NCBI GenBank assembly: GCA_023014335.1
Contig: JAECYW010000004.1
Span: 186,001 to 250,000, forward strand
Direction of reading: 5' to 3'
DNA: 64,000 bases
Source: Galerina marginata
Lineage: Eukaryota; Basidiomycota; Agaricomycetes; Agaricales; Galerinaceae
Translations under genes and position numbers: made by a program
Shown here: positions 30,010-51,880 of the stretch, in pieces
How the letters are laid out: every line of letters starts with the position of its first letter
Numbering within the stretch: the first letter of the stretch is position 1
Notes under the pieces: model-generated
What the model saw: only the letters and a program-made list of their open reading frames with translations
Databases searched by the model: none
What the model was told of the DNA's origin: nothing

Positions 30010-31289
30010 GATGGGCGTGAGCAAGAAGACGATCAATAACGCAAATCCTTATGTGCAACAAATCACCACGAGAAGTCACAGGACTGAAGATGCACGATGG
30101 TGAGTTGCCTCTTTCGGCAATCGATTTCGATCAGGTCAGACGTCTGCGAGGGTGATTCTTTTTTTAAGCAAAGAGAAGCTCTATTCCTAGTCACAAAGCA
30201 GAAAACCAACGACGAGACATAGATAGATATCTCCATTGCGAAAGATTGAAGAGTCGCTCCCTGAAATACTTTCAGGCCTTGGTTTTTGAATCAGAAGAGA
30301 GCGAACCTTCAGAAGTGGACTCTCTGTGTGCGTGGACGCCGATTTTCCCCTATCTTCCCATGTATAATCTTCTCGGGACCCACCTATTGTGTAGTATTTT
30401 CTATCTTTTCGTGCATTAGCGTAGGATGATGACTGACCGGCCCAAACCTCCAGTATTTACCAGTGTAATGACAGTTGCTATTTTAGATACATATGTACCT
30501 AAAAACATCCCTTGAGAGACAGAAGATTTAAAAAACATGGTGCCTGGGCGACGAACAAGCGACGAAGCAACTTTAGTGACGGCTTGAGAAAGGAAGCGGC
30601 AGCCTAACCTTTGATTTTTCGACTTGTTGTGGGAGTGTACGTGTGTGAGGTACTATATAGCTGAGGTAAAAAATACATCCCTGGTGATGTAAACGTTTGT
30701 GGACGAGACTCAGCGCATAAGTAGCATGTGTCACGGAATTCATAACGCGCCCTCCAATTTCTGATGTTGCTCGCTGTGCGCTCTTGTTATTCTCACACCG
30801 TACATATGGCATATGAATGAATGAAGAGCAGAATCAGTTGTTCCTGCCCCATATTTTTCGCTAGATTTTGGCAATTCGGGCCCATCACACCAAAACTGCA
30901 CCCACCACCTTTGACGAAAACAATAAATTTAGTTCTGCTACTCCATGCTCTGAGGGGGGCATTGTAGTGTAGCACCACATTTCAGGCCCATACATAACCT
31001 CGTAGCTGGAAATGTGGGGCGTATTGTCCAAATTGGTCCAGCATCGTCTAAATGGGAATATGGTGCATTTTAACCGAATTGAAGCGCTCGGGAAAAAATT
31101 AGTGTCGGGACACGGATAGAAAAAAGGCCGAGAATTCCCGTCAGGGTTGCTATAAGCTACTTGTGCAATTCTTGTGAGGGTAGACAGAATCCAAATTTAG
31201 GCTCGAGTTGATGCTCGAAATTTTCAGTACATAGCCGCGACTTTGATCAATAATATTAAGGATTCGGTACCTTCGCACTTGGAATCACA
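30010..31289. other. Intergenic between P450 and the KDZ element
   Basis: No gene recognised. The first few hundred bases upstream of 30009 would hold the P450 promoter. The rest has short frames only. No clear sequence partner of this stretch is present beyond the right arm of the transposon. Confidence 0.4.
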
Positions 31290-31627
31290 GTGCGGAGGTA
31301 CACATTTTCGACGACTAAAGCAAAAGGATCAATAGCAACAAATCTTGGGTGCCGCGGTCAATTTAACTACACAGGCGCTTCATGATTCGGTGGAATTTCG
31401 ACCACATAGGGAATGGGGTCAATTTCCCGTCATTTATTCGCGTCGGTTCTCCTCCACTGTGGCCTAATCCAGTGCATCCCCACTGCAATTCCGTTGTCCA
31501 TAATCAAAATAGGTGTGCTTGCACCATAACCACTCGATCAAACTAGATCGAATGTCTATCCAGCCTACTGTGGAACTCGCAATCTGTGGGTATGCACTGG
31601 TTAAACTACTAGACCAGGGTTAATACG

Positions 31628-31639
31628 GTGAGTACTCAC
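31628..31639. repeat. Perfect palindrome at outer inversion junction
   Basis: GTGAGTACTCAC is self-complementary. To its left the arm reads in the inverted sense relative to the right arm; to its right it reads in the direct sense. It equals the left half of the element's motif GTGAGTACCCAC joined to its own complement. Confidence 0.75.
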
Positions 31640-32026
31640 TGGATTGAGTCCGAGACAGTAATTCTGGTGCAGGCCTACCGATTGTGACTGGGAACCGAAT
31701 CGATGCGAATAAATGGTGGTTACTCACTAGATTGAGTTAGAGACAGTAATTTTGGTGCAGGCTTACCGTTTGTGAATGGGAACCAGTGCGAGTTAGTGAA
31801 ATAGAATTGGTGGGTACTCTCTGAATTGTGTCCAGTCTAGTAGTTCCAGTGCCTGCCCACCGATTGCAAATTCACAAATACGGTATGTAGGTACTGGATC
31901 GAGTCTGATCGAGTAGTTCTGGAGCAGGCGCACCAATTGTGAATATCAGCAACGAAAAAACGGTGGGCATGAACTTAATTGATCCTCAGGGAAGGAGAAC
32001 CGACTCCACTAGATGAAAGGAAAAAT

Positions 32027-32040
32027 GGTGGGTACCCACC
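32027..32040. repeat. Perfect palindrome at inner inversion junction
   Basis: GGTGGGTACCCACC is self-complementary and marks the return from direct to inverted sense relative to the right arm. It equals the right half of the motif joined to its own complement, the reciprocal product of the junction at 31628. Confidence 0.75.
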
Positions 32041-32104
32041 GATTCTATTTCATTTATTCGTATTGGTTTCCATTCTTAATTGGTGGGCATGCACTGAAAC
32101 TATT

Positions 32105-32760
32105 GTCCCGGACTCAATCTAGTGAGTACCCACCGATTTTTCTTTTTTTATTTGCGTCGGTTCTTGTTTAAGTGAGGTTCAATCCTGTGCAGCCTCACCA
32201 CATACATTTGTTTAATTATCAAAATCGGTGTACCTGCACCGAAACTACTTAATCAGACTTGATTCAGTGTTCAGCCGCCGTATTTATAAATTCACAATCG
32301 GTGGGCGTGCACTGGAACTACTGTCTCGGACTCAAATCTAGTGAGTACCCACCAATTTATCTTTTTTTATTTGCGTCGGTTCTCGTTTAAGTGAGGTTCA
32401 ATCCTGTGCAGCCTCACCACATATATATGTTTAATTATCAAAATCGGTGTACCTGCACCGAAACTACTTAATCAGACTTGATTCAGTGTTCAGCCGCCGT
32501 ATTTATAAATTCGCAATCGGTGGGCGTGCACTGAAACTACTGTCTCGGACTCAATCCGGTGAGTACCCACCTATTTCTTGTCATTAATTCGCATGGGTTC
32601 CCACTGAATCCAGTGCCTCCTCACCAAATATTCTTCCTATATTCTCAATCGGTGTACTTGCACCGAAGCTACTTGATAAGATTTACCAGAATTTATCCTG
32701 TACCTCCGTACGCATATTTTCTTGCGTCTGTAATTTGTACCGCGCTTACTTATTGTAAAT
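32105..32760 (+). repeat. Subterminal tandem repeats, 218-bp period (left)
   Basis: Markers GTCYCGGACTC start at 32105, 32323 and 32542, giving periods of 218 and 219 bp. Each unit also contains GTGAGTACCCAC, a GCGTCGGTTCT word, an AGTGAGGTTCAATCCTGTGC block, a GGTGTACCTGCACCGAAACT block and a CAGCCGCCGTATTTATAAAT block. The first two units are nearly identical. Confidence 0.8.
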
Positions 32761-33218
32761 ACCCACCGCGTTTGCTCAACCGTGTCAAATTCAGTGTCTT
32801 CCAACAGCATATAAGCTTAAAACTGTACCTGTCCACTGAGTAATTTGATCAGACTCCTCCCCGCTTGTCCTCGGCAATTTCCCAGGCACATCAGACACGT
32901 GTGAATCTCGTCTTTCCCGGCGGCTCGGGTCAGTCCGACGGCTCGAGATCCAGGAATTTGGTTCGATCACTCCAGATTCATCGTCACAAAGATTAGGTGT
33001 ACATGCACCGTTTTGGATCACATTTCCAAATTTGTGGGAACACACAAAATGATGACGCCATAGCAATCCGGCGCCTCGGAACAGCATTTGACAAGTCTCA
33101 ATACGGTGTAAGGATACACAATTCACTGTATTGCATGTAAATTTTGTCCACACCAATACGCCAGTGAATTTTTATTTTTTCGCACCGCAGATTTACCAGA
33201 CGCTAATATTTATATCCC

Positions 33219-34243
33219 CTACACGTGAAGCAGTTCGGGCTCCTTCTTCTCCCATTGAAAAATATTAAACTCGCTTTCCCATGGTCCATCGTTTCCTCTC
33301 GCACACTCGACGTCCTCAAAGTCTTCCTTGAGGGTGGACAATGCCCATCCATCATCAATTCCCAGTTCACCGGTTAAAGCGGGTGGAGCCAGCCCCTTCC
33401 TAATTGGCTTCGACTTCTTGCCGCCGCTCAGGTAGAGCTCATAAGTGAGTTCTCTGAGTCCGATACAGTTTCGCAAGTAATCGGGCGGTTGGCCTCCTGG
33501 TCTGAAAATCAAAAGTCTTCGACGGTACTCACAGTTCAGTGGTACATGTGGATCGAGGTCCCTAAACGTGCCGCCTTCATGCCAAAACTGGATATTCACT
33601 GTCCTGTGGTTCAGGACGAGTTGTAATTCGGGGCAATCCACGTAGAAAAACTCCCTGTCGAACATTCGGAAATCAACGCGGATCGGAAGATGTGGTCCTT
33701 TCTGTCGCACCGTTAGCATTAGTATTGAAGTGAAGGATGTCTAAGAGTGTGTACCCAGTGATCTAAATAGAAATAACACGGAACAATTTCCGGTGTTTCA
33801 CATTTTGCCTGGCTCTTTCGCAACGTGTGCTCCCTCTCGACCAATGCCAATGATTCTTCATACTCGCGTTCATACTCGCCCGGCGGTTTAGCTCGGGTAA
33901 GGGCGAGTTCCTCAATACAACAGAACGATTTGAAGGGATCAGGACGCGCAGTTGGGTCGTGAAGGTAGCGGATGTAGTCGAGCTGATAGGAAGTAAAGCC
34001 TTGGTGCATGTAATTATAAGCCCAGTCTGGAGAGGAGGCTCGGGAAGCCAGCTCCTCGATGGATAAAGGCTTTGCTGAAGCAGTCGACGGCCGCTGACAG
34101 TATTGGACATAATCAAACTCGTCATGGGTTAAAGATGCCAACATTGGCGAGTAGCTTCGACCTCTAGTTGCTGAGCGATATCCATCGAGGTCTTGCAAAA
34201 GCTTGGCCATGAAGTTGGCTTCTTCTTCTGCTGTTGGAGCCAT
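33219..34243 (-). CDS. KDZ cargo protein, unknown function
   Basis: The ATG at 34243 opens MAPTAEEEANFMAKLLQDLD; two exons join at an intron of about 60 bp (donor GTACAC after YFYLDHW, acceptor GTGCGACAG before KGPHLPIRVDFRMF), giving roughly 320 residues and a stop at 33219. The first half has two similar segments built around DEFDYVQYCQRPSTA and YQLDYIRYLHDPTA (pattern D-Y-[VI]-[QR]-Y). The second half is beta-like (FFYVDCPELQLVLNH, VNIQFWHEGGTF) and ends in an acidic region. No family recognised. It is the first gene inside the left arm. Downstream of, and on the same strand as, the micro-exon gene, about 250 bp away. Confidence 0.55.
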
Positions 34244-34490
34244 GGGGGAAAAATCGCCGCAGTAAGAAAGTTGGGGCATAAGCAAAGAGCAAGTACGGCC
34301 TAAAAGCATTTTATAACAAATTTTTCCTTGGTAATTCAGACTTAAGACGACCAAATTTTCGTGGACACAAAACCAGTGCTCCAGGCACAGGATTACAGCG
34401 TGGAATTACAAATTCTACATAACGTGAGTCCCAAAAAAGCCTCCGTACAATTGGCTATCGATTTCCGCACTCCTGCCGTCGCAACATCGT

Positions 34491-37400
34491 CTACATCCCA
34501 TCCTCTCCGCCGAGCAACTCCTGGAAGCGCCTCTCCCCTGCATGAGGTGTAGAAGTGATTATAACGCTATACCCCAACATGTTCAGCCTCTCAACTTGCC
34601 TAGCGATAGATACTGCGGCGAGTCGCGGAATCCAGCCACCAGATTCGTTGTCATCGCCATATATATCGTCGACGGTGAGGCAGGTCACCTCCATCCAATG
34701 CTGGACCCAAAAGCGACGAATTTTGGCTGGAACTATATCGTTGTCCGTCATGTACTCTCTGTGGGCGGATAATTTCGGGTTCGTCGAGAACGACTTGAAG
34801 GTCTTCCACACAAAAAATTCTACCAGGACGTCGTCAACGGCGCACCCGCAATTCATATGTCCAAGCTGTGGTTCCCTGTATCCTGCGGCCTTGGACGACA
34901 TCGCCTTCTTATATCCTACACCCGTAAGTTCACCACCAGCGGAGTCGTGCTGATGATGCCCACGATTGCGCTGGTGGTAGCGACAAACGTAGTTCTTGGA
35001 ACTGGTGTAGTGAACGATTTTCGCTACTTCCTTCCTTCGGTAACTACTCTCGGGCAGAAATTCCTGAACGTCGCGAGTCGCCTTACGAATGCCGACCTCG
35101 ATATTATTCAATGCCTTCTTCTGAGATGCAGCCGATGTCGCTTTGCAGTACTTTTCTATGAGTTCCTGACCGCGTACTGAAAGTATAGTAAGACATTAGA
35201 TTCTTGGAAAGTGGTAAGCAAGTTTCGACGGTACCTTCCAAATCTTGATGACCGGTTTCGGTGAGCTTGTAATATCTGGCGCAATTCTCTGCTGGGTCGT
35301 CGTCGTCCTTGTCTTTGGTCTTCTTCGCTTCCTCTTTGGCTTTGGTCTTCTTCGTAGAGGTCTTCTTCTTCTTTTCACCTTTCGCCCTATCCTCTTCGTT
35401 CGTCTGGACCAACAGCTCCAATTCATCCTCTTTCGCCACAAGTTCGTCGCGTAAAGCCTGGAGCGAGTCGGGGCCAATGGTTCTAAACGATTTCTTTAAA
35501 TCAGAAACCTCTTTCCGTAAGGCTACTTCTCGCTGGATGTTCGCATAGACAGTGAAGTGGCGCTGGTATTCTTTTTGGGAAGTATCGGCGGCAATTTTCT
35601 TCTGGGCCAATAGGTCGTCCATATTCTTCATCCATCGCTTTATTTCGTCCAACTTGTTGGCGCCAACTCTCCCTTTAATGACACCTTCCTCGAAGAGGCG
35701 ATCGACCGCATCGTGTACAGATTGCAGGTCATCTCGCTGTCGTTGTGCGTCTGCGAGTTCGTACTTTTTGACATGTAGGTCGGCGCGTGCGTCTCCGTTG
35801 TGCCTAGGTTCGCCTTCGAATCTTGGAGCCGTGGGGATCGATTGACAGTCCCACTCGACAGGCTCGTAAACAAAACTGAAAGCCATCAGGTCGTCAGGAC
35901 TCGAAGGAATCACGAAGTTGGCATTTGAGGCAAAGCTATAATTCTAAGGGTGAGTTTGGCCGTCTCAGAGATAAAATAAATTGGAGCTCTCACGTCCAAA
36001 GATTCTGCCACATATCAATTTCATCTGGCAAGGCTTTCACGTTAGGTGACGTGGTATCTTCTTTGAGCACGTTGTCTCCGGGCGGTACGTGGTCCATAAA
36101 ACTGTGTGATATCGGTGAGCTGACGATTCAATTATTCCACGACAGCACTCACGTATCAACTCCGCTTTCTTCCTCTTTGCCTTCGTGAGTTGTTCCAGTA
36201 GCAATGTTCGCGTCATGGTTGATTCTAGTTCAACAGACTAGTGTCAGCCCTCGAATACTAACAATGTTTGCAACAAAATGACTGCTCACTGTGACGAACT
36301 GCCTACAGTTGAATCGTGAGCATTCCCTGCACCCATCTGTATATCTGACCTGAAGAAGTGCGCAGAGATGAGCTTTCAATTCGTTTTAATGGCGTTAAAT
36401 TGAAAACATACCCAGGGTGAGTCAAGTTTATATCTCCTACGGAGGCGTTAACATTTATTTTCTCTAGCCTTGTGAGCGGGAACGTGAGCTTCGCAATCAT
36501 AAGGTCGAACGATAAGTAAGTGCTATACCCAATAGGCGCGCCATTGACAGATTTAGTAACATTATCGACCTCCATTTCTATGTCAACCCTAACACATTAA
36601 TGGGAAGGCGTGAGCGTCGAGGTTATCAGGAGCAAGTTTATCGAGTGGGGACTTACCCTGCCTGAGCGCTTCCAGACATCTTATCGACGTCCATTTCCAT
36701 ATTGCTTCTAGCAATACTGGGAGAGGTGAGCATTCGAATTCTAAAGGATTCATTCTAAGTAAATTAACTTGCCTGTTATGTTCTTCACAGTCAGTCCTTT
36801 CTTCACGTTTGACTTCCATTTCATGGTCGTTCCTTTCGTATTGTTCGCTAATGAGTTTCTTGAGAAATAGAAAGATTAAGCTTGGCCTACCCAACGCTCC
36901 CGTCATTAATTCCCGTCTGCGCGATGCTGGAAAAATGCGGGTGAGCTATATAATAATTGCTTTCAAGACAGGGATCGCATACAGCGTGATGGCGCTGAAG
37001 CTTTTGCGCCCAATGAAGCGAACATTCTCGGGAAGGCTGGAAAGGAAGGTGAGCTATCGCAAATACGGTAATAAAAATTTCACATACAGGTTAACATGAA
37101 CTACGTTTGCACCTGCCGAAAATCCTTCATCGTTTGGTTCCTTCTCAATACTAAATAAGATAAGTCCAAGTCAGTCGCACTAAATAACCAGAACATAATT
37201 AACTCGACGTACAGGGAGATATTATTTTTCTCTACCCCAAGGCTAGTTTCTACGCCCTCAGAACCATCTGAAGAAGTCCTTGTGTTTAAGGCCAGACTGG
37301 AAATAAAAATAAGGTCGGCGTTCACCTCTTTTTCGATTGAAAAATCAAACTTCACTTACTCATTGGGAATCGTTTCCTCTAGACCTTTCACAGCCGGAGA

Positions 37401-37735
37401 ATTTGGGAACGATGTGGTTGAAGAAACGCTTCCCATCCGGCCTAGTCTAATAGAAGCTCGATTAAGTCCAGGATTAAATTTATTACGAATGAACTTACCC
37501 ATTTTTCCCGTTCTGTTCTGTATCAGATAGGGCCGCCTTGTCTCTTAACGCCAGGAGCTCATCCAGACGGTTCCGAGCAAGGACTTTGTCTTCTACACGT
37601 TCATGGTTAGTCAAATTTGCGAGCAAAGGCCAAGACATGATATATACCTGGAAACTCCTTGTTTGCATTCCGTTTCTTGAACTTCACTTTCTCGTAGGCG
37701 ATGCGCGCGGCTTCAATTTCGTCGCTTAAATCCAT
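34491..37735 (-). CDS. KDZ cargo gene of many small exons, coiled-coil protein
   Basis: A chain of short exons keeps frame through GT-AG introns: MDLSDEIEAARIAYEKVKFK (37735), VEDKVLARNRLDELLALRDK, SSTTSFPNSPAVKGLEETIP, TRTSSDGSEGVETSLGVEKN, EPNDEGFSAGANVVHVN, EQYERNDHEMEVKREERTDC, ARSNMEMDVDKMSGSAQAG, EMEVDNVTKSVNGAPIG, LEKINVNASVGDINLTHPG, INHDANIATGTTHEGKEEES, and FMDHVPPGDNVLKEDTTSPN ending DEIDMWQNLW. A large exon follows, with a coiled coil and a KKKKTSTKKTKAKEEAKK nuclear-type signal, then the last exon (KYCKATSAASQKKALNNIEV to the stop at 34491). About 700 residues. A further 5' exon (PHREKNPVLVFKKICRK) may precede 37735. No family recognised; a DNA-associated or nuclear role is only inferred. 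Confidence 0.5.
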
Positions 37736-38526
37736 TAAAGACACTATACAGTCGGGTGAGCTTCTATGGGAAGTGGTGGTAATAAGCGAAATACCTGTTT
37801 TACGGCAAATTTTCTTGAAAACGAGCACTGGATTTTTTTCGCGATGAGGGACTGTAAGGTGAGAGTGGAAGGTTTGAGAGTACGGGGCTGTTTGACCCCC
37901 AAATTTCCCGTCTCGTCACACCATCCATCACGCTTACCGCCTATCTCTCCAGTACCGCCTATCTTTCCAGCAGGGGGATCACAGCAAATGCAATTGATCT
38001 CCGTCGGAGCATGTACAAATCTGAATATCGGGAGAAGCTTTGAATTGCTTTGTATTTCCGCCCGCTTCACCAAATATCTACGCAAATCAGGAGTGCAGGG
38101 TACAATTAGAAACCAATGATATTCTCCGGTACTACTGAATCCTGATCCCTATCTTTATACAGTATTGACACCCATAGAACAGTTAATTATTGTAGAGGAG
38201 AAGGCCAAGAACGACAAAATACTAGAAAGAAGATTCGGGCAGCCTTCAAGTCGGCATCCACGGAACGGTTTTCGAGGATTCCTGCACAAGGAAGAACAAT
38301 GGTAAACCGAAATGGGGAAAATGAATTCTCATGGATAGCGTCCGTGTGGCACTTCAGAAATCTCGATGATCGTTAATTGTTTTTATTTTGGTTCGACCAA
38401 ATGGAGCCGATTCTATCTTTGGACCAGGGACTATTCTGCGTGTCCTAATCTGGCTGTGGACCGGTGAAACAGCCCAGTTATGCAAAACAGTGCCCGGACG
38501 ACAAGTTAGATTACTATCGATAATGA

Positions 38527-39233
38527 CTATTCAGCTAAGGCAACGAGGATGGCATGGTTGCTGTCGGAATACTCTGGATAGCGATAAGTAAAATTTACGA
38601 TCCGCCCAGACCCGTCCAATATGATCTCGCCCTTAGTAGGAATCTTCCACTGCTCCCGCAACTTGAATATTCGGTCGGTAGTTTCCGCATTGCTATATTC
38701 TTGGTCGTGGCCTATCTGTCGCAGGATAGGCACGACCTCTTTGACGAAGTTCTCCACACTGGATTTCAGTACCAAAAAATCGTCATAGTAGGCCAGCTTG
38801 AGCATTTCCTTGGTATAGAGACGCGACTGCACTGGAGATAGAACGTCAACTTGTTAAGGAAGAAGAAAAAAGCTAAGCGTAATGTTCAGTACCTATCTCA
38901 CCGGTGACCTCTGGGGTTTGTATCAGCGGCAAGGAAAAATTTAATACACCGAAAACGCCACGTACGAGATCTCTTGTAAAAACCGCCTGCTGGGCCAGAG
39001 ACCCATCCTCGAAGGATCTTGATTTGGCAGTAAACCGCTATATCCTCGTCGCTGGGAGACGAAATTAACTCGATATAGGTTCGGCGCGCATTGAACTCGT
39101 CGATATCTTGGGGATTGGAAAGCGATAGAAATATTTCCCTGGTAACGCGTTCAACATCTAAGTGGTCGATGTTCTGGGCATTTTCGAAATATGTGGAGAC
39201 GGCCTGCTTGATACGCTCGTCAAGTTCAGACAT
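38527..39233 (-). CDS. KDZ cargo protein, unknown function
   Basis: The ATG at 39233 begins MSELDERIKQAVSTYFENAQ. The second part reads LYTKEMLKLAYYDDFLVLKS, then VKEVVPILRQIGHDQEYSNA and ends HAILVALAE with the stop at 38527. The joins need an intron at about 38910-38840 (after PEVT) and either a very short 28-nt intron or a frameshift near 39020. About 200 residues, mostly helical. No family recognised. It diverges from the viroplasmin-like gene, with 264 bp between the two starts, a likely shared promoter. Confidence 0.45.
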
Positions 39234-39497
39234 GGTGTACTGAGGGGAAGTGGGTATGTTCACAAATATAATTATTCGTACTTCTGCACCAAGATAACGG
39301 ATTCCTACGACTGCAAGTTTCGGTCCAATTCAACAACATGTGTCCCCATTTATTCCCGAAACAGATGACCTCAGGCTGGGCAATCGAGATCGATTGCCTT
39401 TTTAATCGTTCAGGACATGAGCTCAAATACTCAAAGGTCATTCGTCTTCCCCAAATTCTTAACGCCTTTTCACATTTGTACTTCTCACAATTCTCCG

Positions 39498-40346
39498 ATG
39501 TCTCAACTCTCCGAGTCTGCCACTTCGCCAGAGTTTACCACGTCTCCGGAGTCTGCCACTTCTCAAGAGAAGCCTTTCGGTCATTCTGCCTCGGACGGTA
39601 CTCCCATCCAGACCAGACGACCTCGTAAGCTCGTCTTGATGTTTATAGTCATACCAATTTGACGATACCGCTCAGTACTTGCCTTGAGCACAGAAGAAAA
39701 TCTTCCTTTCTGGTATGCCATCATAATTGGTCGAGACCCTAAAGTTGCCTTTGGATCGTACGTTCGTCAATTCTGACAGTGCACTTTGGTTTACTAACCC
39801 TGTGGCTAGTGACGGCGTCGCAGAGAACATTGAGCACGTCCCTGGTGCGCATGCTGCCCGATTCAAGACTGAAGCCGACGCAACGGAGTATTTTAACGCT
39901 GCTCTGGACTTGGAGCTCGTTACCAAGTTCACCATCATCTATGAGCGCAAAAAACTCGACGGATCCTCCCCAGGTATTCCTGGAATTCCGGGTAAGCTGA
40001 ACGAACAAGCGAACACAATTCCACCTGCTCATGTCATTTCTCCCAGCTAACTCAGGTATAGATCTTACCTTGAATAAGTATATCGCAATTTTCATCGGGA
40101 GGACTCCAGGCATAATCGCTGGGCGGTGAGTGTTAAGATACCGCTTTAATGTGTAAATCTAACGTCGTTTTTTTTAGCGGGAACACGGCTTTGAACTTGT
40201 TGGACATCCCCAATGCTAGGGCTAGGAGGTACGGTAACTATGCAGACGCCTTTGCAGCGTTTGACACCGCTCTCAATGCTGGTGGAGTAGAACGTGTTGT
40301 TTTTAAACGTACCTCCGTCGTCCTTACTCGGGCTGATTTTGCGTAA
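39498..40346 (+). CDS. Protein with two viroplasmin/RNase H1-N-like domains
   Basis: The ATG at 39498 opens a Ser/Thr/Pro/Glu-rich N-tail (MSQLSESATSPEFTTSPESA). An intron (donor GTAAGC at 39626, acceptor GCACAG) leads to domain 1: LPFWYAIIIGRDPKVAFGS, a 52-bp intron, then HVPGAHAARFKTEADATEYF. A Gly/Pro spacer (SSPGIPGIPG) is followed by an intron and domain 2: KYIAIFIGRTPGIIAGRGNT with ARARRYGNYADAFAAFDTAL. Both halves follow the caulimovirus viroplasmin / RNase H1 N-terminal pattern (WY-x-V/I-x-x-G-R-x-P-x-[IV], then a G-A-x-x-[KR]-x-[FY] strand and A-x-x-[FA]-F helix), a small fold that binds RNA/DNA hybrids in RNase H1. No RNase H catalytic domain follows. About 220 residues, ending RTSVVLTRADFA. 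Confidence 0.65.
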
Positions 40347-40577
40347 ATTGTATCTTGGACAGTACTCCCTTTCCCAACTGCTTGCTATGCGCCTTGTTAC
40401 TGCTGTAATTTGTCTGTACCTTTGAATATGACGCCGTACTCGTAATCTGCCTATGCATTGAGTTTACAAACTTGAGATTTGACGTGCTTTTCAAAAATTA
40501 GTATAAACGGCCGTCCAATTATTCATGTTGTGATTCGACGCTCTACCCTGTAACTACGTCTATCCTCCTACAGTAAT

Positions 40578-41563
40578 ATGTCGCAAGCTGGTGCTCCACC
40601 ACAGAGCAAGTATAAAAAATATTATGAGAAGTACATTTTCGCTTGGCCTTTATTATCCATATATTAACGAGGATGAACCAGAAACAAGGAGGCAATAAAG
40701 GTAAAAAACGCAGAAATAAATCGCCGACGTCGTAGTGAGAAGTACGAACAATTTCAGTCTTTGGAGGCTCTACTCATATATTCATACAGAAGCTCCCAAT
40801 CGGTTCAAATTGGTACTGGAATCGAGAGTCAAAGCCAAGAATTGCGTGAATAGTACGTTGTTTATGGCGAACACCCATTTAAACTCACAGCTAAATTCTT
40901 CGTAGCATCACCACAGGAGTACAGACTGACCCAGTCGACGACTCTCTGGAAAAAATCATGGAGGAATACTGGCAATCCCCAGCCTATCCGGATTTTGAGG
41001 ACCTTTTTTCCGTTATGAAGACAAAGGTCGTCCGTCCATCGAGAAACTTCACGGCCCCTCTGAGTGCGTTGGAAGAAATCGAACCGCAGTTTCCACAATA
41101 CGAATCTTTTATTAAACTTAGAGCAAAGGTACAGAAATGGAGCAGTCCGTGGGGGGGTATCTCATCCTGGCCAGATACCTTTGAAATCCTGCTGGATCGA
41201 TCAATTGACCGTGGACCTGAACGTATATCACAGTTCATCGAAAGGCTCTGGGTACACGAACTGGCGGGAAAACAACTTTTGCGCAGCCTACAAGCAATAG
41301 AGGGTTACCTCCCAAATAACCACCCTGCCGTCAAGATCCTGTGGGCATACCAACAAGAGCAACTTATCGAAGTCGTTCAAGGTTTGACTATAATCCAAAC
41401 CAGACTCCCAATTATACGCCGTAGTTTGTACAGCATCGGCAGTTCAACGGCCAACTTCCACAGTATTATTCAACGTTCGTTTGACGCCGAACCTGTCATC
41501 GCAGACATGGACCAGGAACTAGAAGAAGAGGAGCTAATTCAACAGGCGCTTGTTGAGTCATAA
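40578..41563 (+). CDS. KDZ cargo protein, helical, unknown function
   Basis: Start at 40578 (MSQAGAPPQSKYKKYYE); introns at about 40629-40671, 40702-40736 and 40857-40918 keep frame into the long last exon, which runs VQTDPVDDSLEKIMEEYWQS to the stop at 41563. About 270 residues; basic N-terminus, then helical segments (FIERLWVHELAGKQLLRSLQ, QEQLIEVVQGLTIIQTRLP) and a strongly acidic tail (DQELEEEELIQQAL). No family recognised. It follows the viroplasmin-like gene on the same strand at 230 bp. Its last codons and 3' flank are duplicated downstream. Confidence 0.55.
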
Positions 41564-42050
41564 TACAAGACAGGTGTTTTATTTAATTGAAACTTTGAGA
41601 TTACTGCTGTACTTCACTTGCTCTGCTTTAAACATCTTTACATCTTTTACCACTTCGGTCCTGGACAAGCCAAAAATCTTCAGGTACGGCCAATTCCTAA
41701 GTCGTTTAAGCAGCTAGTTCAACGGGCGCTTGTTGAATCGTAATATGAGACAGGTGTTTTATTTAGTTGATACTTTGAGATACGCTACTGAATTATCGGA
41801 TCGAGTCTCCCTAAATCTTTGGTTCTTCTCCGAGTGCGCTGGTAAGTTGTGAACCGCTTGTTTAGAGGACAAATATATATCGGTTGGATATATTTTACAG
41901 TGCGGATTACAAGTGCAACTTGTTCACTTAAAACCTGATTGCTCTGCTTGAATATTTTTACATCTGTAAACACTTCGATCTTTGACAAGCTAAGAGTCTT
42001 CGAGTAGTACAAGTACAGCCAATTTCCAAGTCGTTTAAGCTTTGTTTAAG
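41540..42050 (+). repeat. Diverged duplications of the 3' end of the 40578-41563 gene
   Basis: The end of the coding region and 3' flank at about 41540-41605 (GCGCTTGTTGAGTC, then AGACAGGTGTTTTATTTA) recurs at about 41718-41783. The following segment with ACAAGCCAAAAATCTTC and CCAATTCCTAAGTCGTTTAAGC at about 41668-41710 recurs in diverged form at about 41988-42040. These are tandem duplications of about 180 and 325 bp without a repeated gene body. Confidence 0.6.
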
Positions 42051-42126
42051 CTTCATGTCGAATATCTCTTCTTTTAAATGAGGGTTACGGACAATTCCTC
42101 CATAATGTCGTCCGGTGTATGACCAA

Positions 42127-42286
42127 TTTGCTACCCGTTTGCTACTTTGTACTAAATATTGTACCGTTCCACCACATTCACATATACTCAGCGCTAAGAT
42201 AAAGGTGACTTAGATCCAAATAAACCTCGATGTTTGCTACTCGTATTTGCTACCAACGTGGACATGGTTTGCTACTTATTTGCTAC
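42127..42286 (+). repeat. Six copies of TTTGCTAC in three close pairs
   Basis: TTTGCTAC occurs at 42127, 42138, 42233, 42246, 42268 and 42279. Two pairs have starts 11 bp apart and one pair 13 bp, about one helical turn. It lies in the gap between two cargo genes and could be a cluster of protein-binding sites. No function can be assigned. Confidence 0.6.
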
Positions 42287-42589
42287 CCACTGCTTTACTG
42301 GTTAGATGGACCGGATTTCCCTCACCAGTCGTCGAGTCGAGGAAACCCAAGTGGATCACGACAAACATTTCCCGCGCGTTTAGGCTCAAACCCTCAATGT
42401 AGGTACAAGCCAATGAAAAATCCATGTTCATTTCAAGTAGGACTCAGAAACGTTGATTCGTGCTGCAAGACGCGTTGTAAGCCCAACTTTGCATGAACTG
42501 TGAATGAGCCTGCACCTTCATCACCTCCTGTGGGACCTACCAAGACGGCTTCCATGCCGAGCTAGGCTGTTACTTCATTGGGCCTGTGT

Positions 42590-43304
42590 GGCAGAATCAC
42601 CTTCCTAAAGCGATCACTGAACTTCGCACCATTATCGGCCCGACAGGTCGGACAAGAAACCGAAGTGACTTCAAAAGTGTGGGGTTGCCGATTTGCCGAA
42701 GAGAGTGGCGGTGTTCATGTGACAGGAAATGCCCCTCTTTCGGCAACCTCCTCAGCGCGCATCAAAAACTCTGTGCCTTGCGCGTCAAAACAGACAATCC
42801 TGACGACATGTTGCACGAAATTTCCTAAAACACGGTATATAGTATCATCTCTGTTTCTAAAAGCTCAATCCAGCTGTCTTTTGGTTTTTTTCTACATCCT
42901 AAGTTAATTTTATCCACCCAGTCATCAAAACGGTGAGACGCGCCCAAACCGCTGGGATTCTGAGAATAGCCAGATTGCTCATTAGTGTTCTGAAGGGGTG
43001 AATTTTCGTACTCCACCGCCACCGATTCCTTTGTTCTTTCGATCACAGCAGTCTCCCATTTTCCCAGTGCCTCGCATTTCCTATCGCCGTTAGTGCAAGG
43101 AAGAGGATACAAATCCGAGTTCCAATTCTTATCTTCCCGAATATTAACCAACCTACCAAAATGACAAGCGGCGTGAAAGGGTAAACTCCCAGAGGTTCTC
43201 TGAGGACCCGAATTACTGGGACTGATAGTCATATCCCTGTACAAGCGGTGTGAGAGAGGCTTGTAGGCATCGATACCGGAATTAAGATTTTCTATCACTG
43301 ACAA
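42590..43304 (-). CDS. Possible KDZ cargo gene fragment with CPTC motif
   Basis: A 159-codon minus frame (43304-42825, MSVIENLNSGIDAYKPLSHR) is followed on the same strand by coding-looking pieces RIVCFDAQGTEFLMRAEEVA (about 42800-42720) and TSVSCPTCRADNGAKFSDRF (about 42640). They could be joined by an intron around 42840-42820 and another near 42715. The CPTC pair suggests a small metal-binding end. Splice joins were not settled and no family is recognised. Confidence 0.25.
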
Positions 43305-43354
43305 GCGACGGGAAAAGCGAAAGGTCGTGCGTCCATGACCCGGATTATCGGTAC

Positions 43355-43394
43355 ACGTATCTGCTTATCACCTCACGTATCTGCTTATCACCTC
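43355..43394 (+). repeat. 20-bp perfect tandem duplication
   Basis: The word ACGTATCTGCTTATCACCTC occurs twice with no spacer. It lies between two cargo genes. Confidence 0.9.
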
Positions 43395-43659
43395 ATGTCT
43401 CGTATCGGAAAGGCGCCACAAAACGCCAAGTTCCTGAGGTCCTATCTCATCTCATCGATTTCTGGCCCCCGAGTAAGTGTGAGACTGACAAAGGGAGAAT
43501 TAAAACGCTCCACATATGTCCAGGTGACCATTTTCCAAAACCCGAGAACTCGGAAATGTAGACAAACGAAGCCAAGCGGACGATAAATTAACAAATAGAA
43601 AACAAGACAGGTGATGATTGCATAATGTGTGTGATCTACATCCGGCGTCGAGTGAGAGG

Positions 43660-44973
43660 TTACTCCGAGCGCGCCTCGAGTTCATCTGCTCCGATTCCCA
43701 GCCTGGTCGCATAGAGTTCTAGTAGCCTCTCCTGGTTCGTGAGTCTCTCTCGTAGCCCGTTCGCCTGCTTGAGCGCCTCCTCCTTTGCTGTTTCGACCTT
43801 TAGGAGTTTCATAGTCAATTCCAAGGCTTCCGTTCGACGAGCTTGAAGTAAATTTGTCATGAGAACATGGAAGTCGTTGGCGACATCGTTCATTTGTTCG
43901 CCCGCGTCACGTATGAGTCGTGGAGAGGTGTAATGCAGAGTGGCACCAACACCGCTGCAGTGTTGTGCTCCGATGAATAACCAGCAGCCAGTTGTAGCGG
44001 CTAGATCATCGCACTACAAAATATAGATTAAACTAGGATTAACAAACGCAGAAATATGCTTACTCTCTCGATTAACCGGTTCATGTTCTCCAGGAACCTC
44101 TTACTTGCAACTTTCGCATCATATATGCCCTGCTGTCGAGCGTGCTTTCGAACTATGTCTAAATGAGAGGCGGTTAAGTTCAGAGGTAAGAGAAATAAAA
44201 TAAAGAACGGACCATGACGAGCGGCACCCCTCATAGCCCGCACAAATCCATGCTTCGGGTTGGCCTTCGTAGCCCGAGAATAATCCGACTTTATTTCTGA
44301 TGAAGTGAGCGATGTTGGAAGGTCGTCGGCCTGAGGGGGGACTGGAAGGGATGATGGCATTTCGGCAATTCCATCACCTTGAGGAGATGAGGAAAGCATT
44401 GGGACATAACAATCGCTTGGTTGAGGTGATAACGGATCCGGAATGGGGAGGATTGAGTCAGCATTGGAACCAGCAGATTGATCTCCGGGGAACTCGAGAG
44501 GACTGTCACCCGGATCGCCAGATGTATCAGGAGGACCATCGACAGCAGTCGTACTGGTCGCAGTCGAAAGCTCCTGGAGAATAAATAGCTAATGAATACC
44601 CTAGCAACTAAGGTATAGTTAATGACTTACTGCGAGGATCTGCGCTTCTTGAAGATAGATTCTGCCCAGGCGCGTGTGAACACACTGGGAACGGAGCGGT
44701 CTTCCATCACACGAATTGCACCTTGGGGATGACCTTACGCCCTTCTTTGGCTTTTCAGCAGACTTGGTTAAACGAGTTAGATGCCTTAACAAAATACTAG
44801 AGGTGAATTCGTACCTCGGCTCGAAGCTTGATCATGGCGCGACCTGCTTCCGTGTGTATGCACTCAGTGCGCAGTGGCCTGCCGGTGCATTTATTACAGT
44901 GCATTGGCCCCCTGGCTTTCGAAGGTGAGGTCCGAATGTTGCCTCGACGAGCATTGGTCGTTTCCTTGGGCAT
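43660..44973 (-). CDS. KDZ cargo protein with two tandem C-X2-C-X8-C-X-H motifs
   Basis: Five exons, all phase-compatible. The ATG at 44973 gives MPKETTNARRGNIRTS, a basic N-tail, then HCNKCTGRPLRTECIHTEAG. Exon 2 repeats the motif as CNSCDGRPLRSQCVHTRLG. Both copies share C-x2-C-x-G-R-P-L-R-x-x-C-[IV]-H-T, so each can bind one metal ion. Exon 3 is Ser/Pro/Asp-rich (TSGDPGDSPLEFPGDQSAGS). Exon 4 reads IVRKHARQQGIYDAKVASKR, and exon 5 has CDDLAATTGCWLFIGAQHCS, then a long coiled coil (ELTMKLLKVETAKEEALKQA) ending IGADELEARSE at 43660. About 370 residues. The layout, paired zinc motifs plus coiled coil, suggests a dimeric nucleic-acid-binding protein, but this is inference. Confidence 0.6.
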
Positions 44974-45963
44974 TACTCAAGGAGATGGGGGTGAGCGACG
45001 CGTGGGTGATGGTGGTAAAAGAACAAGGACGTTTGGGACAACATAAGGCGGATGATTTAAAAAGAGAATATTTGGGCGAGGCTCACCAAATTTGTCTCTG
45101 GTCCCAATCAAATTCGGTTCCTTTGCACTGAATTTCTTGCTTTGGTATGTGTCTTATTGACTTATATTATTAAGTCGTTTGAAAGCGAATCTTGTTTTGC
45201 AATTACCACATTCCAATCGTGGAACTTAATCTTGTTTATGGTTACCAAATTCCCACCGGAGGATCCAATCTTGTGGGTATGAACAAGATTCTGTCATAAG
45301 ATCAAATCGGTAGAACGACACTTCTTTAGCCCGATATACCTATTTGCTGAGGGAATCACAATTCTAGCGCCCAATCTTAAATCGTTCAACACAACCGGTC
45401 TATATGACGCATATCTCCGATAGAAAGCGCATCCGGTAAGACCATCGAGAGGGAACCAACCCGACCTGCTGGTGACTATATTAGATTAGATAGAGTCCGT
45501 AGTGTAGGCGTTTGTGTGGTGTTTTTGTGCGAGCGCGCCATCCCATCGCAGAGTTGGAACCGACCAAATTCAGTGCCAGGTCAGCGAGCATCCACACCGC
45601 ATTTCCATAACTTCGTCAAAGTCATTCATTCACTTCAGCTCTTTTCTCGGCACCTTCAGGACCGTTTTACGATTGCAGAATGTAAAAATTTCTGTTGAAA
45701 TGTCTTGTTTTAAGGTAACTACAAAGGAGCCGCTCTTTTAGGTTAGGTCTTAACTGAAGCCTCTGTTTCTGAAACTTCTTTACATAGTCTTCAACCGTAC
45801 CTTCTTAAAAAGACAATGCACTTAATTTAATGGTTGTAGCACGAGATCTCACGAAACTGTCGTGCTCATGATGTGTCTTGTCAGAATTTCGAGAATTTTT
45901 GATTTGGGATCAAATTTCGGGTCGCCAACAATTCCAGAGATGGCAATCACTTTTCAACGGATG
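44974..45963. other. Gap between zinc-motif gene and transposase
   Basis: Short frames only, no recognisable gene. Contains scattered AATCTTGTTT / AATCTTGTGG words near 45190-45280 but no regular repeat. Confidence 0.4.
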
Positions 45964-48900
45964 CTATGAGCTAACTACAAGGTCTCTGATGCGTAATCTA
46001 TTCCAAATTGACAGAAATACTTTGGTGAAGATAATAGCGTGTCCTTGATTCATGTAGCTGACCGACTTCCTAATCCTCGCCAGCCCACCATTTCCACACT
46101 CTCCAGCACTGGAATTCACCAGAGCTAGTCGCGAGTCCGTCTGGGCATATGTGGATAGGAATGATGAAGGACAACATTTGGTATGGTCTGGAGCATGGAA
46201 CTGGTCTATCGCAAATAGTGTGTCTTGGAAGAATGCAGGTTCCCGGAGCATACAGTATGGCTGAAGGGCGCAAGCGAAATCGTATAGAATTATCTTCGGG
46301 GGCTTCTCCCACCTTGTATAGAGTGCTGAGAATACATCATTTCGACCTTCGGAAATGGGTATACAGTGGAATCCATAAGCGATGCTGTGGGTACACCATG
46401 GGACCATGATACCTCCAGTAAGTTTTCGAGGGCTATATTTCGAAAAATACTTCCTGCAACCGCCAACTTTCTCCATGCCTCGGTCAGGGGTTTTGTCTTC
46501 GTGTAGATTTGGATACAGAGGTCTATATCTTATCTGCGGCATCTCATAAAAACAACCTGTCTGTGCGCATGGAAAATAAGTTCTTTTACATTTATAAACT
46601 GGCAATGGCTCACCTTTTGCCATTCAAAAATTCCCTCAGCTATAGGCGGACTGGGGGGTTCAGTTTCATGGACTAGAAGCGCACGACGCACTGTTTCAGC
46701 GCGGATATAGAGCCATTTGCAAACTCCGTGGGTTTCTGGGGAGATCCCGCTGAATGTTGATCGCGAGGTTTCAAACATTAGAACCTTATAAAGTGCGGGT
46801 ATATGGATGAGATGAGAAAGGGCTTCTTCGGTTGGTGATGTAACAAAAATTTTGAGGCGCTCCAGAGAAGGGCGATTTATCATTTGGAGGGAGGACTCCT
46901 CGGCGCTTATCTGCGTATATTGAGCAAACGATTCTGACTAGAGATGGATGCAGCTTACCTGAATAAACAAAGAACGATAAACATCCGGGGCGACCGCCTT
47001 ATTGACTACTGCACCAGGTCCGAACCAGCGATCGAAGAGGTCTCCAAGCGCTGAATTAATGAGCTTTAGGCTCGCAACTACACCCGGGATCAGCTTGACC
47101 CTTGCTAACAGTGCTTGTCGCTTTCGCTCTTTCGCCGCTTCTCTTCGTAAACTATTGCGTTTTTGTATTTCCTCGTCCTGCGAGGAACCTGACTCCACTG
47201 ATTCGTAGCCGGCCAAGTCAAGATACGAGAATTCAAGTGAAATCTCCTGGTTCACAGAAGAGACGTCAGCCGCGTTGAGGGATGGACCAGAAATGATTCG
47301 TCTAATATCCTTGCGTATGGCGGTATCTAGGATGAACTGCAAACCTCGGGTTCGGACTGTATCTTGCCGAGCGAGAGATTTAGTCGGGTGGATTTTGGTT
47401 GGGGGTTCCAAGGACGAAAGTAGGTTCCGTTGGTTAAATGATAAAGAGACGCCGTCAAATATTATTGCATCGGGGGTCGGTCCACATGTGGGGCATTTCA
47501 TATCTCCGTGAAGTTCGACGAGTCGTGCATAGGAAAACCAGATTGCCCCAAACGGAGTGTGTTTCAAGAAAGGTATAGATTCAAGCGACTGATAGCGTCG
47601 AGCCATGACATTTACCCAGGCCGTGATTGGTGTCTCCGATGCTGTGAACGCATTGACGTAGTCTTCTAATAGCTGCTGCGTAACCAAAATACGGTTATTC
47701 CAGTTAAAAATCCCAAGTTCTCGGCAATCAGGTCCGACGTATCTCTTACATCCGGAACAGGGCTGGACCTCGATTGTTGACATCCAAGCTCCAACTAATC
47801 CATAGATAATGCATGGTCTAGTTTCGGTAGGGACAAAGGGATTGTACCCTAGTCTAACAGGTTTGCAGCAGCACGACGCAGTGCTTGGATTGAGTGGGAT
47901 TATTTCAGGCGCGTTGTTGAGTGGGTGAATAAGAGGAGCCGGAGAATCTGAAGGAATTCTGGCCCACATTGGCGGGGGGATCGGGAGATGCGACACTGAT
48001 TCATTCATGTGGCTGGTAGCCTGTCGAGGCGATGGACCTTCGGAAGCAAGTAATGAAAAAATAGATAGAATATCCAAAAACCTTCGACTTACTGATATAA
48101 TACATGCGGTTAGAACTTGCACTTGGATCAGTTGCATCCACGTCGGCCTGGATATGCTTCTGAAGTGAGTGCCGGGCGTCAACGACATGCGGGCAGTTTA
48201 CTAGGTTTGGGTCTCTGTTGCATCTCCATAGCCCAGAGCCATCATTCGCACCCACATGCTTGACGACGGCTCGGTTTTTAATTGTTGGATTTATAGCTGC
48301 CTGAATAGAAAAGAGAGTTTTGTATATATTGTCATCGGCTTGATATCGAGAAAAAATGATCACTCCGGTGTCGAGAGCTAGCAACAGTAAGTGAATATCT
48401 CTGAAGAAAAAATTCTGCTGCCCACCTGGTACGTCTTCTCCTGGTGGAAAACGCTCTTCTCCATAATCTAGCATGAACTGAGTATGGAAACAAGACTTTT
48501 TTGCTCGTCCTGTTGGGCACATACACACAGGAATTTTATCCAATCCGACTGTCATGAGGTCGAGATGGTACCAATGTGTCTGAGCAACAACTGAGCGTCA
48601 TAATTTTTGAGTAATAAGTATTAGATATTAGACTTACAGTAATATTTCTCGACGAGGCGTTCCATCCGTTGACTACAAAGATTTGTCGTGACAATTGAGA
48701 AATAACGCACTCTGCAGCAAATACCGCCTCGACAAAGTACTGGTATTCGCTTATTTGGCCTGCATCCCGAGCATCTACCACTGACATAAACTCCGTATCC
48801 TCGTTATTCAAATCTAGGCCATCAGCTGGGCACTGCTCAGGCTTGTGTGGTGAAGCGAGAGGGTGGGCGGAAGCATTTCCAGGGGTGTCAGTCGATTGGA

Positions 48901-49117
48901 TTGGCACTGGTTGACCGGCTGTTGTTGACCTGGGGGTGAGCACCTCTGAATTAGGAGTTTCATGGCGTGATTTGAGACGTTTTTTCGCCCTTGTGGTGGT
49001 TTTTGAATGCCTAACTGGAGTAACAATGACAGAATCATCGTGCTGGAGTAGATTGATTTTCCGAGGAGGCGAGTTAGATTCAGGAAGCAAGATAATGCGA
49101 CGGTGCTCATCGGCCAT
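45964..49117 (-). CDS. KDZ family transposase with CxC clusters
   Basis: Transposase of the Kyakuja-Dileera-Zisupton class. The ATG at 49117 gives MADEHRRIILLPESNSPPRK. Five exons: introns after SRNIT, after NRMYYIS, after SLFIQ and after FEWQK (each with GTAAGT/GTGAGC-type donors). Domains: a basic, Pro/Ser-rich N-tail; a SWIM-like cluster CMCPTGRAKKSCFH (C-x-C-x8-C-x-H); a second cluster with SCCCKPVRLGYNPF, RPCIIYG and QPCSGCKRYVGP; a third with CPTCGPTPDAIIFDGVSLSF; then the catalytic region GGIMVPWCTHSIAYGFHCIP, YDFACALQPYCMLREP, FAIDQFHAPDHTKC and NSSAGECGNGGLARIRKSVS, ending IWNRLRIRDLVVSS at 45964. About 990 residues. No stop or frameshift seen, so it may be active. Confidence 0.85.
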
Positions 49118-49494
49118 TTGACCATGGGAGGAAAGAGAAAAACGAGTGGACAAAGGAAATATAATCACAAACAATGAGTACGCGTTGGAATGACTTAATT
49201 CAAGCTCAACTCACGGAGTGGAACCTTAATTTTTCTGTGTAGCTTGACCATTTCTCCAAGTGGTGATGGCAGGATGCAATGTTGAGAAAGACGTGAACAA
49301 TACGGTAGACCCAGGCCATATTTAAATATTGGTGTGCTAGTGCGAAGTGCGAAGTGAGAAGGACACTATTGAAGTACATTATAAGTGAAGATACTACATA
49401 CAGACATATGCATTGTCTCGCAAGTTGAGTTGGGTGGGACAAGGCAGCTTTCACGCGTATTTGATGCGCTTTGGAAATTGCCGAGAAGGCCACT

Positions 49495-51880
49495 TGACCC
49501 GAGCTGGCGGGAAAGAGGAGACTCACACGTCTCTGATGCGCTTGGGAAATTGCCGAGAACAAGCGGGAGGAAGTCTGATTAAATCACTCAGTGGACGGGT
49601 ACAGTTTTAAGCTTATATGCTGTTGGAAGACACCGAATTTGACACGGTTGAGCAAACGCGGTGGGTATTTACAATAAGTAAGCACGGTACAAATTACAGA
49701 CGCAAGAAAATATGCGTACGGAGGGACAGGATAAATTCTGGTAAATCTTATCAAGTAGCTTCGGTGCAGGTACACCGATTGAGAATATAGAAAGAATATT
49801 TGGTGAGGAGGCACTGGATTCAGTGGGAACCCATGCAAATTAATGACAAGAAATAGGTGGGTACTCACCGGATTGAGTCCGAGACAGTAGTTCCAGTGCA
49901 CGCCCACCGATTGCGAATTTATAAATACGGCGGCTGAACACTGAATCAAGTCTGATTAAGTAGTTTCGGTGCAGGTACACCGATTTTGATAATTAAACAT
50001 ATAGATGGGGTGAGGCTGCACAGGATTGAACCTCACTTAAACGAGAACCGACGCAATAAAAAAAGATAAATCGGTGGGTACTCACTAGATTTGAGTCCGA
50101 GACAGTAGTTCCAGTGCACGCCCGCCGATTGCGAATTTATAAATACGGCGGCTGAACACTGAATCAAGTCTGATTAAGCAGTTTCGGTGCAGGTACACCG
50201 ATTTTGATAATTAAACAAATATATGTGGTGAGGCTGCACAGGATTGAACCTCACTTAAACAAGAACCGACGCAAAAAAAAAAAGAAAAATTGGTGGGTAC
50301 TCACTAGATTGAGTCCGAGACAATAGTTTCAGTGCATGCCCACCAATTAAGAATGGAAACCAATACGAATAAATGAAATAGAATCGGTGGGTACTCACTG
50401 GATTGAGTCCGAGACAGTAATTCTGGTGCAGGCCTACCGTTTGTGACTGGGAACCAGTGCGAGTTGGTGAAGTAGAATTAGTGGGTACTCACTGGATTGT
50501 GCCCGGAGGCCCACCAATTAAGAATGGAAACCAATATGAATAAATGAAATAGAATCGGCGGGTACTCACTGGATTGAGTCCGAGACAGTAATTCTAGTGC
50601 AGGCCTACCGTTTGTGACTGGAGCCGAATTGATGCGAATATATGAAAGAAAATTGGTGCCCACTGACTAGATCGGGGCCGAGACAGTAATTTTGGTGCAG
50701 GCCAACAGAATGTGAATTCAAAAATATGGCGGATAAACACTGTATTATTATCAAGTAGCTTCGGTGAAGGTACACTGATTGTGAATATGGAAAGAATATA
50801 TGGTGGAAATGCACTGGATTAAACCTCGACGAATGGTAACCAACGTGAATAAATGGAAACAATTTGGTAGGTACTCACTGGATTGTGCCCAGTCTAGTAG
50901 CTCCAGTGCATGCCCACCGATTTTGAATCAAAGAATACACTCCGTAGACACTAGATCAAGTCTGATCGAGTAGTTTTGGTGCAGAGACACCGAATGTGAA
51001 TGAGAAAACAATTAGTAGAAAAGAGCCGATACGAATAAATGAAAGGAAATTGGTGGGTATTCACCGGATTGAGCCTGGGCTAGTAGTTCCAGTGTCTGCC
51101 CACTGATTGCAAATTCACAAATACGGGATGTAGGTACTGGATCAAATGTGATCGAGTAGTTCCAGTGCAGGCGCACTAATTGTGAATATGACCAACGAAA
51201 ACACGGTGGGCATGGACTTAATTGATCCTCAGTGAAGGAGGACCAACAAAAATAGATGAAAGGAAATTGGTGGGTACTCACCAGATTGGCCGCGGTGGAG
51301 GAGAACCGACGCAAATAAATGAAAGAAAATTTGCGGGTGCCCACTGGATTGAGTATAGTCCAGTAGTTCCTGTGCTTTTCCACCAAATTTTACATCTGTA
51401 AGCAAATCGAAGTCTCGGGACGCCAACTGGATTGATATTTGCACAGGGTTGGGTCCCGCCTCGGTCCTGAAGAAAATCCTGTTTCAATGCATCTGATTTC
51501 AAGTGTTTTTCTCGAATATGGTGGGCCTGCGCCTAAGTCTGGGAGCTACATTACCCATAATACGGTTGAAACTGCCCAGATTAAGAGTACGGCCCGATCA
51601 AAAATTGTTTTGAGGAGGACAGCGCTTTATATATGCGAAGAAACGATTTTTGATCAGGAAAACAGTATCTATAACTACAGCCTGTGAACCATGGTAATCC
51701 GGTATGTTTGAAGAGTAAAAGCTAGCAGTAAATCGATACAATTTAATTACCTATGTGGTGGAAATTCAACAGAATCGTGAAGCACCAGTGTAGTCAAATT
51801 GGTCGGAGCACCCAAGATTGGTTAGTATTGTTTCCCTCTTCTCTTAGTCGTGAGGAAGGTGTGCCTACTCACCATAATTT
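49495..51880 (-). repeat. Right inverted arm of the KDZ element
   Basis: Inverse counterpart of the left arm, about 0.7 kb longer because it holds more subrepeat copies. The word GAGTCCGAGAC occurs at 49875, 50093, 50311, 50405 and 50576, and the near-palindrome GTGGGTACTCAC at 49857, 50074, 50293, 50387 and 50481, plus diverged copies out to about 51270. Confidence 0.75.
49857..50520 (-). repeat. Subterminal tandem repeats, 218-bp period (right)
   Basis: Inverse counterparts of the left units: GAGTCCGAGAC at 49875, 50093 and 50311 gives exact 218-bp spacing. Further partial units follow at shorter spacing (50405, 50576). Confidence 0.8.

Follow-up and report, generated by a model that had tools for sequence, protein, structure and literature searches.

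A 21-kb mobile element in Galerina marginata, probably a giant CxC4-lineage KDZ transposon with six cargo genes of its own

Here we describe a mobile element in a 64,000-nucleotide stretch of Galerina marginata DNA, referred to below as the window (C34:186001-250000 within a 69.3-Mb genome assembly, where C with a number denotes a contig; all genome-wide searches covered this one genome). The element occupies 30714..52130 of the window (21,417 bp, beginning CGCATAAGTAGCATGTGT and ending ACCTGCCCC) and holds seven genes, namely a transposase gene, F, and six cargo genes, A, B, C, D1, D2 and E. With a probability of about 0.76, we consider it to be a giant cut-and-paste transposon of the CxC4 lineage of KDZ elements, in which F encodes a DDE transposase, the cargo genes all belong to the element itself, and the products of E and B are partner proteins. 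The original prediction for this DNA had proposed a cargo-bearing giant KDZ transposon, which is supported as far as one genome allows. It had also counted about seven cargo genes; the multi-gene cargo is there, but six genes were modelled and seven are reached only when the transposase is included.

The insertion of the element, its exact ends and the duplication of its target are demonstrated. The ends were set by aligning the window copy with a second full copy at C42:368345-390011, which is 98% identical and has the same ends with a different target-site duplication (TSD), GTATTTGG. In the window, the 8-bp TSD AGACTCAG flanks the element at 30706..30713 on the left and 52131..52138 on the right. 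Two element-free sites contain this octamer once each, and the joined window flanks match them at 80-81% identity across the junction; these empty sites are paralogous because the target sequence itself is a repeat. Three diverged relatives on C20, C17 and C3 have related ends and their own octamers, GTCTGTGC, AGAAATGG and AACGAACA, respectively, and each of the five copies that were read over their full length (window, C42, C20, C17 and C3) has a perfect, distinct 8-bp TSD. This length agrees with the 7 or 8 bp that characterises TSDs of the KDZ superfamily. The terminal sequences kept in relatives lie at 30714..30987 (+ strand; 61% to C20:343700-343965) and 51883..52130 (+ strand; 60% to C20:370038-370288). 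The extreme ends are CG..CC, and no terminal inverted repeat (TIR) stood out there above shuffled sequences. Thus, the TSD, empty sites and further full copy that had been recommended as checks were all found, and the element is real, but the predicted span of 31290-51880 missed 576 bp at the left end and 250 bp at the right.

The long inverted arms of the original prediction also exist, with 96-97% complementarity between their cores (32028-32932 and 49495-50398). Taken alone, such arms could speak for an inverted segmental duplication or an assembly artefact; that explanation is refuted by the two single-octamer empty sites and the distinct TSDs in five of five copies, and we give it practically no weight. 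Likewise, the possibility raised at the outset that the arms were an unrelated inverted duplication did not hold, given the TSDs, the empty sites and the second full copy. The arms are subterminal arrays of degenerate units of about 71-94 nt, at 31.4-32.9 and 49.5-51.4 kb (left array 31421..32932, right array 49495..51390). That they are the termini of the element, as predicted, was rejected: the ends lie further out, and two of the five copies, C17 and C20, showed no arms around their genes. The C3 copy has inverted arms as well, of 338 bp. Relative to the two ends, the gene cassette of C20 and C17 runs the opposite way to that of the window, C42 and C3, and recombination involving arms of this kind could invert it. 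The arm repeat motif was counted 11 times in the window and 12 times in C42, but was absent from C20 and C17 and occurred once in C3; the reading of the repeats as conserved transposase-binding arrays is therefore unsupported as a family trait. Separately, the C20 element contains a stretch with no counterpart in the window (C20:358084-363046), framed by inverted repeats of about 740 bp and 88% identity, which is a probable nested insertion.

Our reading of the cargo draws on its linkage to CxC4 genes across the genome. There are 22 CxC4 loci, which fall into 15 groups when clustered at 95% identity and into 13 at 80%. When E was searched genome-wide with the C3 protein as query, a match lay at most 5.3 kb from each of the 22 loci, where uniform placement would give 0.29; E was within 10 kb of none of the 93 listed KDZ matches having no CxC4 within 10 kb (97 of 135 KDZ entries and 26 E entries were compared). 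Matches to B lay at most 48 kb from all 22 loci, and within about 20 kb at 20 of these. A, C and D1 had matches near 11 loci each and D2 near 10, some of the distant linkage matches being weak. Entries with no CxC4 gene within 60 kb were few: 5 of 46 for E, 4 of 30 for B, 1 of 12 for A, 1 of 13 for C, 0 of 11 for D1 and 0 of 10 for D2. These lists were entered without secondary exon rows (E 46 of 70, B 30 of 42, A 12 of 19, C 13 of 25, D1 11 of 21, D2 10 of 14), and gene order was analysed on shorter lists (E 26, B 28, A 11, C 11, D1 11 and D2 10 entries). The full order, F>E>D2<D1<C>B>A>, was found in the same orientation at 7 of the 22 loci and F>E>D1<B>A> at 4, while E and B were upstream of F at 11. 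The cargo set thus recurs with KDZ transposases, as had been supposed: in this genome the cargo matches lie mostly beside CxC4-KDZ loci. Cargo relatives with no nearby CxC4 gene were seen at C25:405020-406604 (E), C40:356914-370516 (E, B) and C4:1957245-1960771 (B, A); they may be decayed or non-autonomous elements, or orphan cargo.

This linkage bears on two other explanations of the cargo. One is that unrelated mobile elements were nested in a KDZ element and their genes mistaken for cargo. Nesting does occur, as the extra C20 stretch framed by 88% inverted repeats indicates, but at seven loci matches to the same six cargo genes share one order and orientation, synonymous sites being saturated at some of them, and we regard a composite of this kind as very improbable. 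The other is that the cargo consists of captured host or host-benefit genes, passive or advantageous to the fungus, as in Starship or Pack-MULE elements. It is in keeping with this that the cargo varies by lineage (A, C, D1 and D2 at 10-11 of the 22 loci), like exchangeable cargo, and that some cargo matches are far from any CxC4 gene; against it, the order is colinear at seven loci and matches to E and B accompany every CxC4 locus. Overall, we think it unlikely that the cargo was captured from the host.

Gene F (45964..49117, - strand) has an open model of six exons and 956 aa. In Pfam searches its CxC4 domain (PF18717) is clear, with an E-value of 2e-43, but its KDZ domain (PF18758) scores 20.3-22.4 bits (E 1e-4 to 5e-4), below the Pfam cut-off of 26.6. 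The intact-looking KDZ transposase of the original prediction is present as a gene, its KDZ assignment being weaker than its CxC4 assignment. Among the 22 members of the F homologue alignment, PF18758 matched 13 at E<=0.01 and PF18717 matched 21, the exception being the window's last exon alone. Conserved acids (putative triad D494, D852, E912) and a DDE-type fold predicted from the homologues agree with a DDE/RNase H-type core, and F is predicted to be a DDE enzyme. The closest F homologue is from Galerina marginata, at 75%. Foldseek comparison of the F model with PDB and viral models gave zero matches at E<=0.001. The ISCth4 transposase (PDB 6xg8, 6xgx), at 8% identity, has no CxC4 module or cargo; we take ISCth4 to be a bacterial single-gene element of the IS256 family. 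No tyrosine recombinase of the Starship captain type was among the Pfam matches of the seven gene models, and the element differs from Starships in that F is DDE-type by prediction, whereas their captain is a tyrosine recombinase.

The cargo gene models are splice-aware and guided by conservation with C20, C17 and C3, and they are open by construction. Gene A (33219..34279, -) has two exons and 335 aa with no known domain. Gene B (34491..36013, -), one of two core cargo genes, has three exons and 473 aa, with a coiled-coil-like N-terminal half and a conserved C-terminal half as judged by eye. Gene C (37495..39233, -) was modelled with nine exons and 317 aa; it includes the micro-exons noted earlier, although this model is uncertain in the exons after the second. 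Gene D1 (39639..40346, +; about 167 aa, first exon uncertain) encodes a double RNase H1 N-terminal domain and confirms the predicted viroplasmin-like protein, with PF01693 matching at E 5.2e-5 in the window and at 1.1e-10, in two stretches, in the C3 relative. Gene D2 (40578..41563, +) has three exons and 293 aa with no known domain. Gene E (43660..44973, -), the second core gene, has six exons and 345 aa, with tandem CxxCxGRPLRxxCxHT motifs and a long C-terminal helix. No Pfam family exceeded the cut-off for the five cargo models other than D1, in keeping with the unfamiliar gene set of the original prediction. Sequence searches of the PDB with E, D2 and B profiles returned no matches, and the D1 profile returned weak rows only (best a tau chain at 0.006 without its own stretch; RNase H1 at 0.5). 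In a structure model of an E homologue, of moderate overall confidence, the motif region has a pLDDT of 93-95 (residues 31-60) and a long C-terminal helix follows; Foldseek of the E model against the PDB gave zero matches at E<=0.001.

A profile search with E found 12 homologues, in genera recognised as agarics; in all 12, the zinc-type motif keeps its three cysteines unchanged. E and F carry consecutive locus tags in three of these (Psilocybe cubensis, Agrocybe chaxingu and Coprinellus aureogranulatus), so the E-F linkage reaches other genera, which argues against captured host genes. For three more, the contig is identical in length to that of an F homologue from that species; for the remaining six, the best 120 of 136 F homologues included no such partner. 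A protein search with full-length B returned nothing, probably with lysine-rich words swamping the candidates, and is uninformative on the distribution of B.

Coding-sequence conservation was compared between the window and its relatives. Excluding stretches with local identity below 30%, the ratio of nonsynonymous to synonymous substitution rates (dN/dS) for the window versus C20 and C17 was 0.07-0.08 for F, 0.08-0.10 for E, 0.12 for D2, 0.13-0.16 for A and 0.19-0.22 for C; versus C20 it was 0.084 for B and 0.18 for D1. Synonymous divergence (dS) in the comparisons with C20 and C17 was 1.5-2.8 and protein identity 51-80%. That the cargo values approach that of the transposase is a further point against captured genes. 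A wrong-frame model of gene A, since discarded, gave 1.03-1.07 against C20, C17 and C3 and served as an accidental control. Projected on the C42 copy, six of the seven models remain open, the exception being D2 with a single premature stop; the window and C42 differ by too few changes to weigh dN/dS. Several observations count against the reading that we prefer. The comparisons of B and D1 with C17, and of all genes with C3, are saturated, and C20 versus C17 gives a dN/dS of 0.18-0.36. The window exons projected on C20, C17 and C3 show many frame breaks, and these copies may be partly decayed or have different exon edges. Finally, the tandem zinc-motif protein of the original prediction is tandem in the window, where E has two motifs, but each of the 12 homologues from other fungi has one.

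The element has no TET/JBP gene, in line with what had been reported: the gene models of the window have no Pfam match to such a domain, and none of the 18 Tet_JBP matches in the genome is on C34. By eye comparison of the lists, no Tet_JBP match lies within 60 kb of any CxC4 locus, whereas the three strongest TET/JBP matches are 4-5 kb from non-CxC4 KDZ matches (C3:1336006-1340571, C10:915502-920041 and C39:263804-269172), an arrangement already reported for KDZ elements that bear TET genes. This difference, together with the RNase H1 N-terminal type domains of D1, would suit an explanation in which the cargo consists of selfish anti-silencing genes that take the role of TET/JBP, rather than of transposition machinery. 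It overlaps our preferred reading and differs on the role of E and B. E and B have no match to a chromatin or methylation enzyme in Pfam and PDB sequence searches, which is weak evidence against it, and the regular E-F pairing fits a partner role at least equally well; we see an anti-silencing cargo of this kind as possible, at less than even odds. Elsewhere in the genome, five Tet_JBP matches at C23:2791967-2870203 are 19,462-19,468 bases apart, an apparent tandem array of units of about 19.46 kb, in each of which a TAG interrupts the frame that matches. At C40:2749519-2832370, KDZ matches recur every 20.2-21.9 kb or so, possibly a tandem array of a KDZ element.

As a transposon with partner proteins, the element would move as follows. 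F would bind the ends, excise the element, probably as double-stranded DNA, and insert it with an 8-bp staggered cut of the target. The six cargo genes would be the element's own rather than captured host genes, and linkage and conservation suggest that E and B most likely act as partners within the transposition complex. E, with its zinc-type motif module and long helix, may bind DNA or the transposase, by analogy with the second protein of multi-protein transposons. RNase H1 N-terminal domains bind RNA/DNA hybrids and double-stranded RNA, and D1, to go by its domain type, might dampen silencing that works through RNA. All of the roles given to the six cargo genes are inferred. En/Spm with TnpA and TnpD, Harbinger with its Myb-like partner, and Tn7 are multi-protein DNA transposons; the likeness would be in the proposed division of work between a DDE transposase and its partners. 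In a wider and more doubtful proposal, agaric CxC4-KDZ elements would be ancient multi-subunit eukaryotic transposons, a counterpart of Tn7, that need at least F, E and B, with A, C, D1 and D2 as lineage-specific auxiliaries, among them a viroplasmin-like protein that suppresses RNA silencing.

DNA transposons of eukaryotes are generally regarded as systems of one or two proteins, with which the E companion at 22 of 22 loci contrasts. The jump of this element may need several proteins and not one, and related copies have kept the cargo over long evolutionary time. The element gives a functional context to new protein families with no known fold match, and it makes testable the idea that giant elements depend on sets of proteins for moving large DNA or evading silencing.

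KDZ elements were reportedly defined by Iyer and co-workers in 2014. Among those described, the Cryptococcus elements with CxC domains are active, and KDZ1 has an 8-bp TSD while KDZ2 and KDZ3 have TSDs of 4-8 bp (PMC12810828). They resemble the present element in having a KDZ-type transposase with a CxC zinc domain and, for KDZ1, in TSD length, but they are about 9-11 kb long, carry CxC1 and not CxC4, and have TIRs of 139-241 bp, and the passages that describe them mention no cargo set (PMC12810828). Intact KDZ elements of Pleurotus carry CxC2 (PMC7641404). Giant KDZ elements reach 30.3 kb in Ectocarpus and 31.7 kb in Chlamydomonas; they share the giant size and, in many Ectocarpus giant families, extra genes, but these are mostly functionally obscure and the relevant sections describe no conserved multi-gene set (PMC12477816). 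The Kyakuja, Dileera and Zisupton elements of fungi likewise belong to the KDZ superfamily and bear an extra gene, TET/JBP, which the present element lacks, its gene set being different (PMC12730594). In the same source, Kyakuja has a 7-bp TSD and CA..TG ends, unlike the 8 bp and CG..CC found here; Zisupton matches in its 8-bp TSD but has TIRs; and Dileera matches in TSD size, the one feature compared (PMC12730594). The original prediction needs correcting in that giant KDZ elements bearing accessory genes have already been published from other groups of organisms (PMC12477816). In the open-access literature we found no publication joining CxC4 and KDZ, and the present gene set was not found described there. 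What we call new is a CxC4-lineage KDZ element whose conserved gene set recurs and whose transposase has a regular partner gene.

Other features of the window lie outside the element. A retrotransposon at 56821-63998 (-), which starts about 4.7 kb from the element, has reverse transcriptase, RNase H, integrase zinc and chromo domains and reads as Ty3/Gypsy-like. At 19949-22750 (+), a CHAT domain (E 3.7e-37) lies behind weak TPR matches, indicating a TPR-CHAT type protein, and at 9245-9889 (-) there is an Asparagine synthase / glutamine amidotransferase exon.
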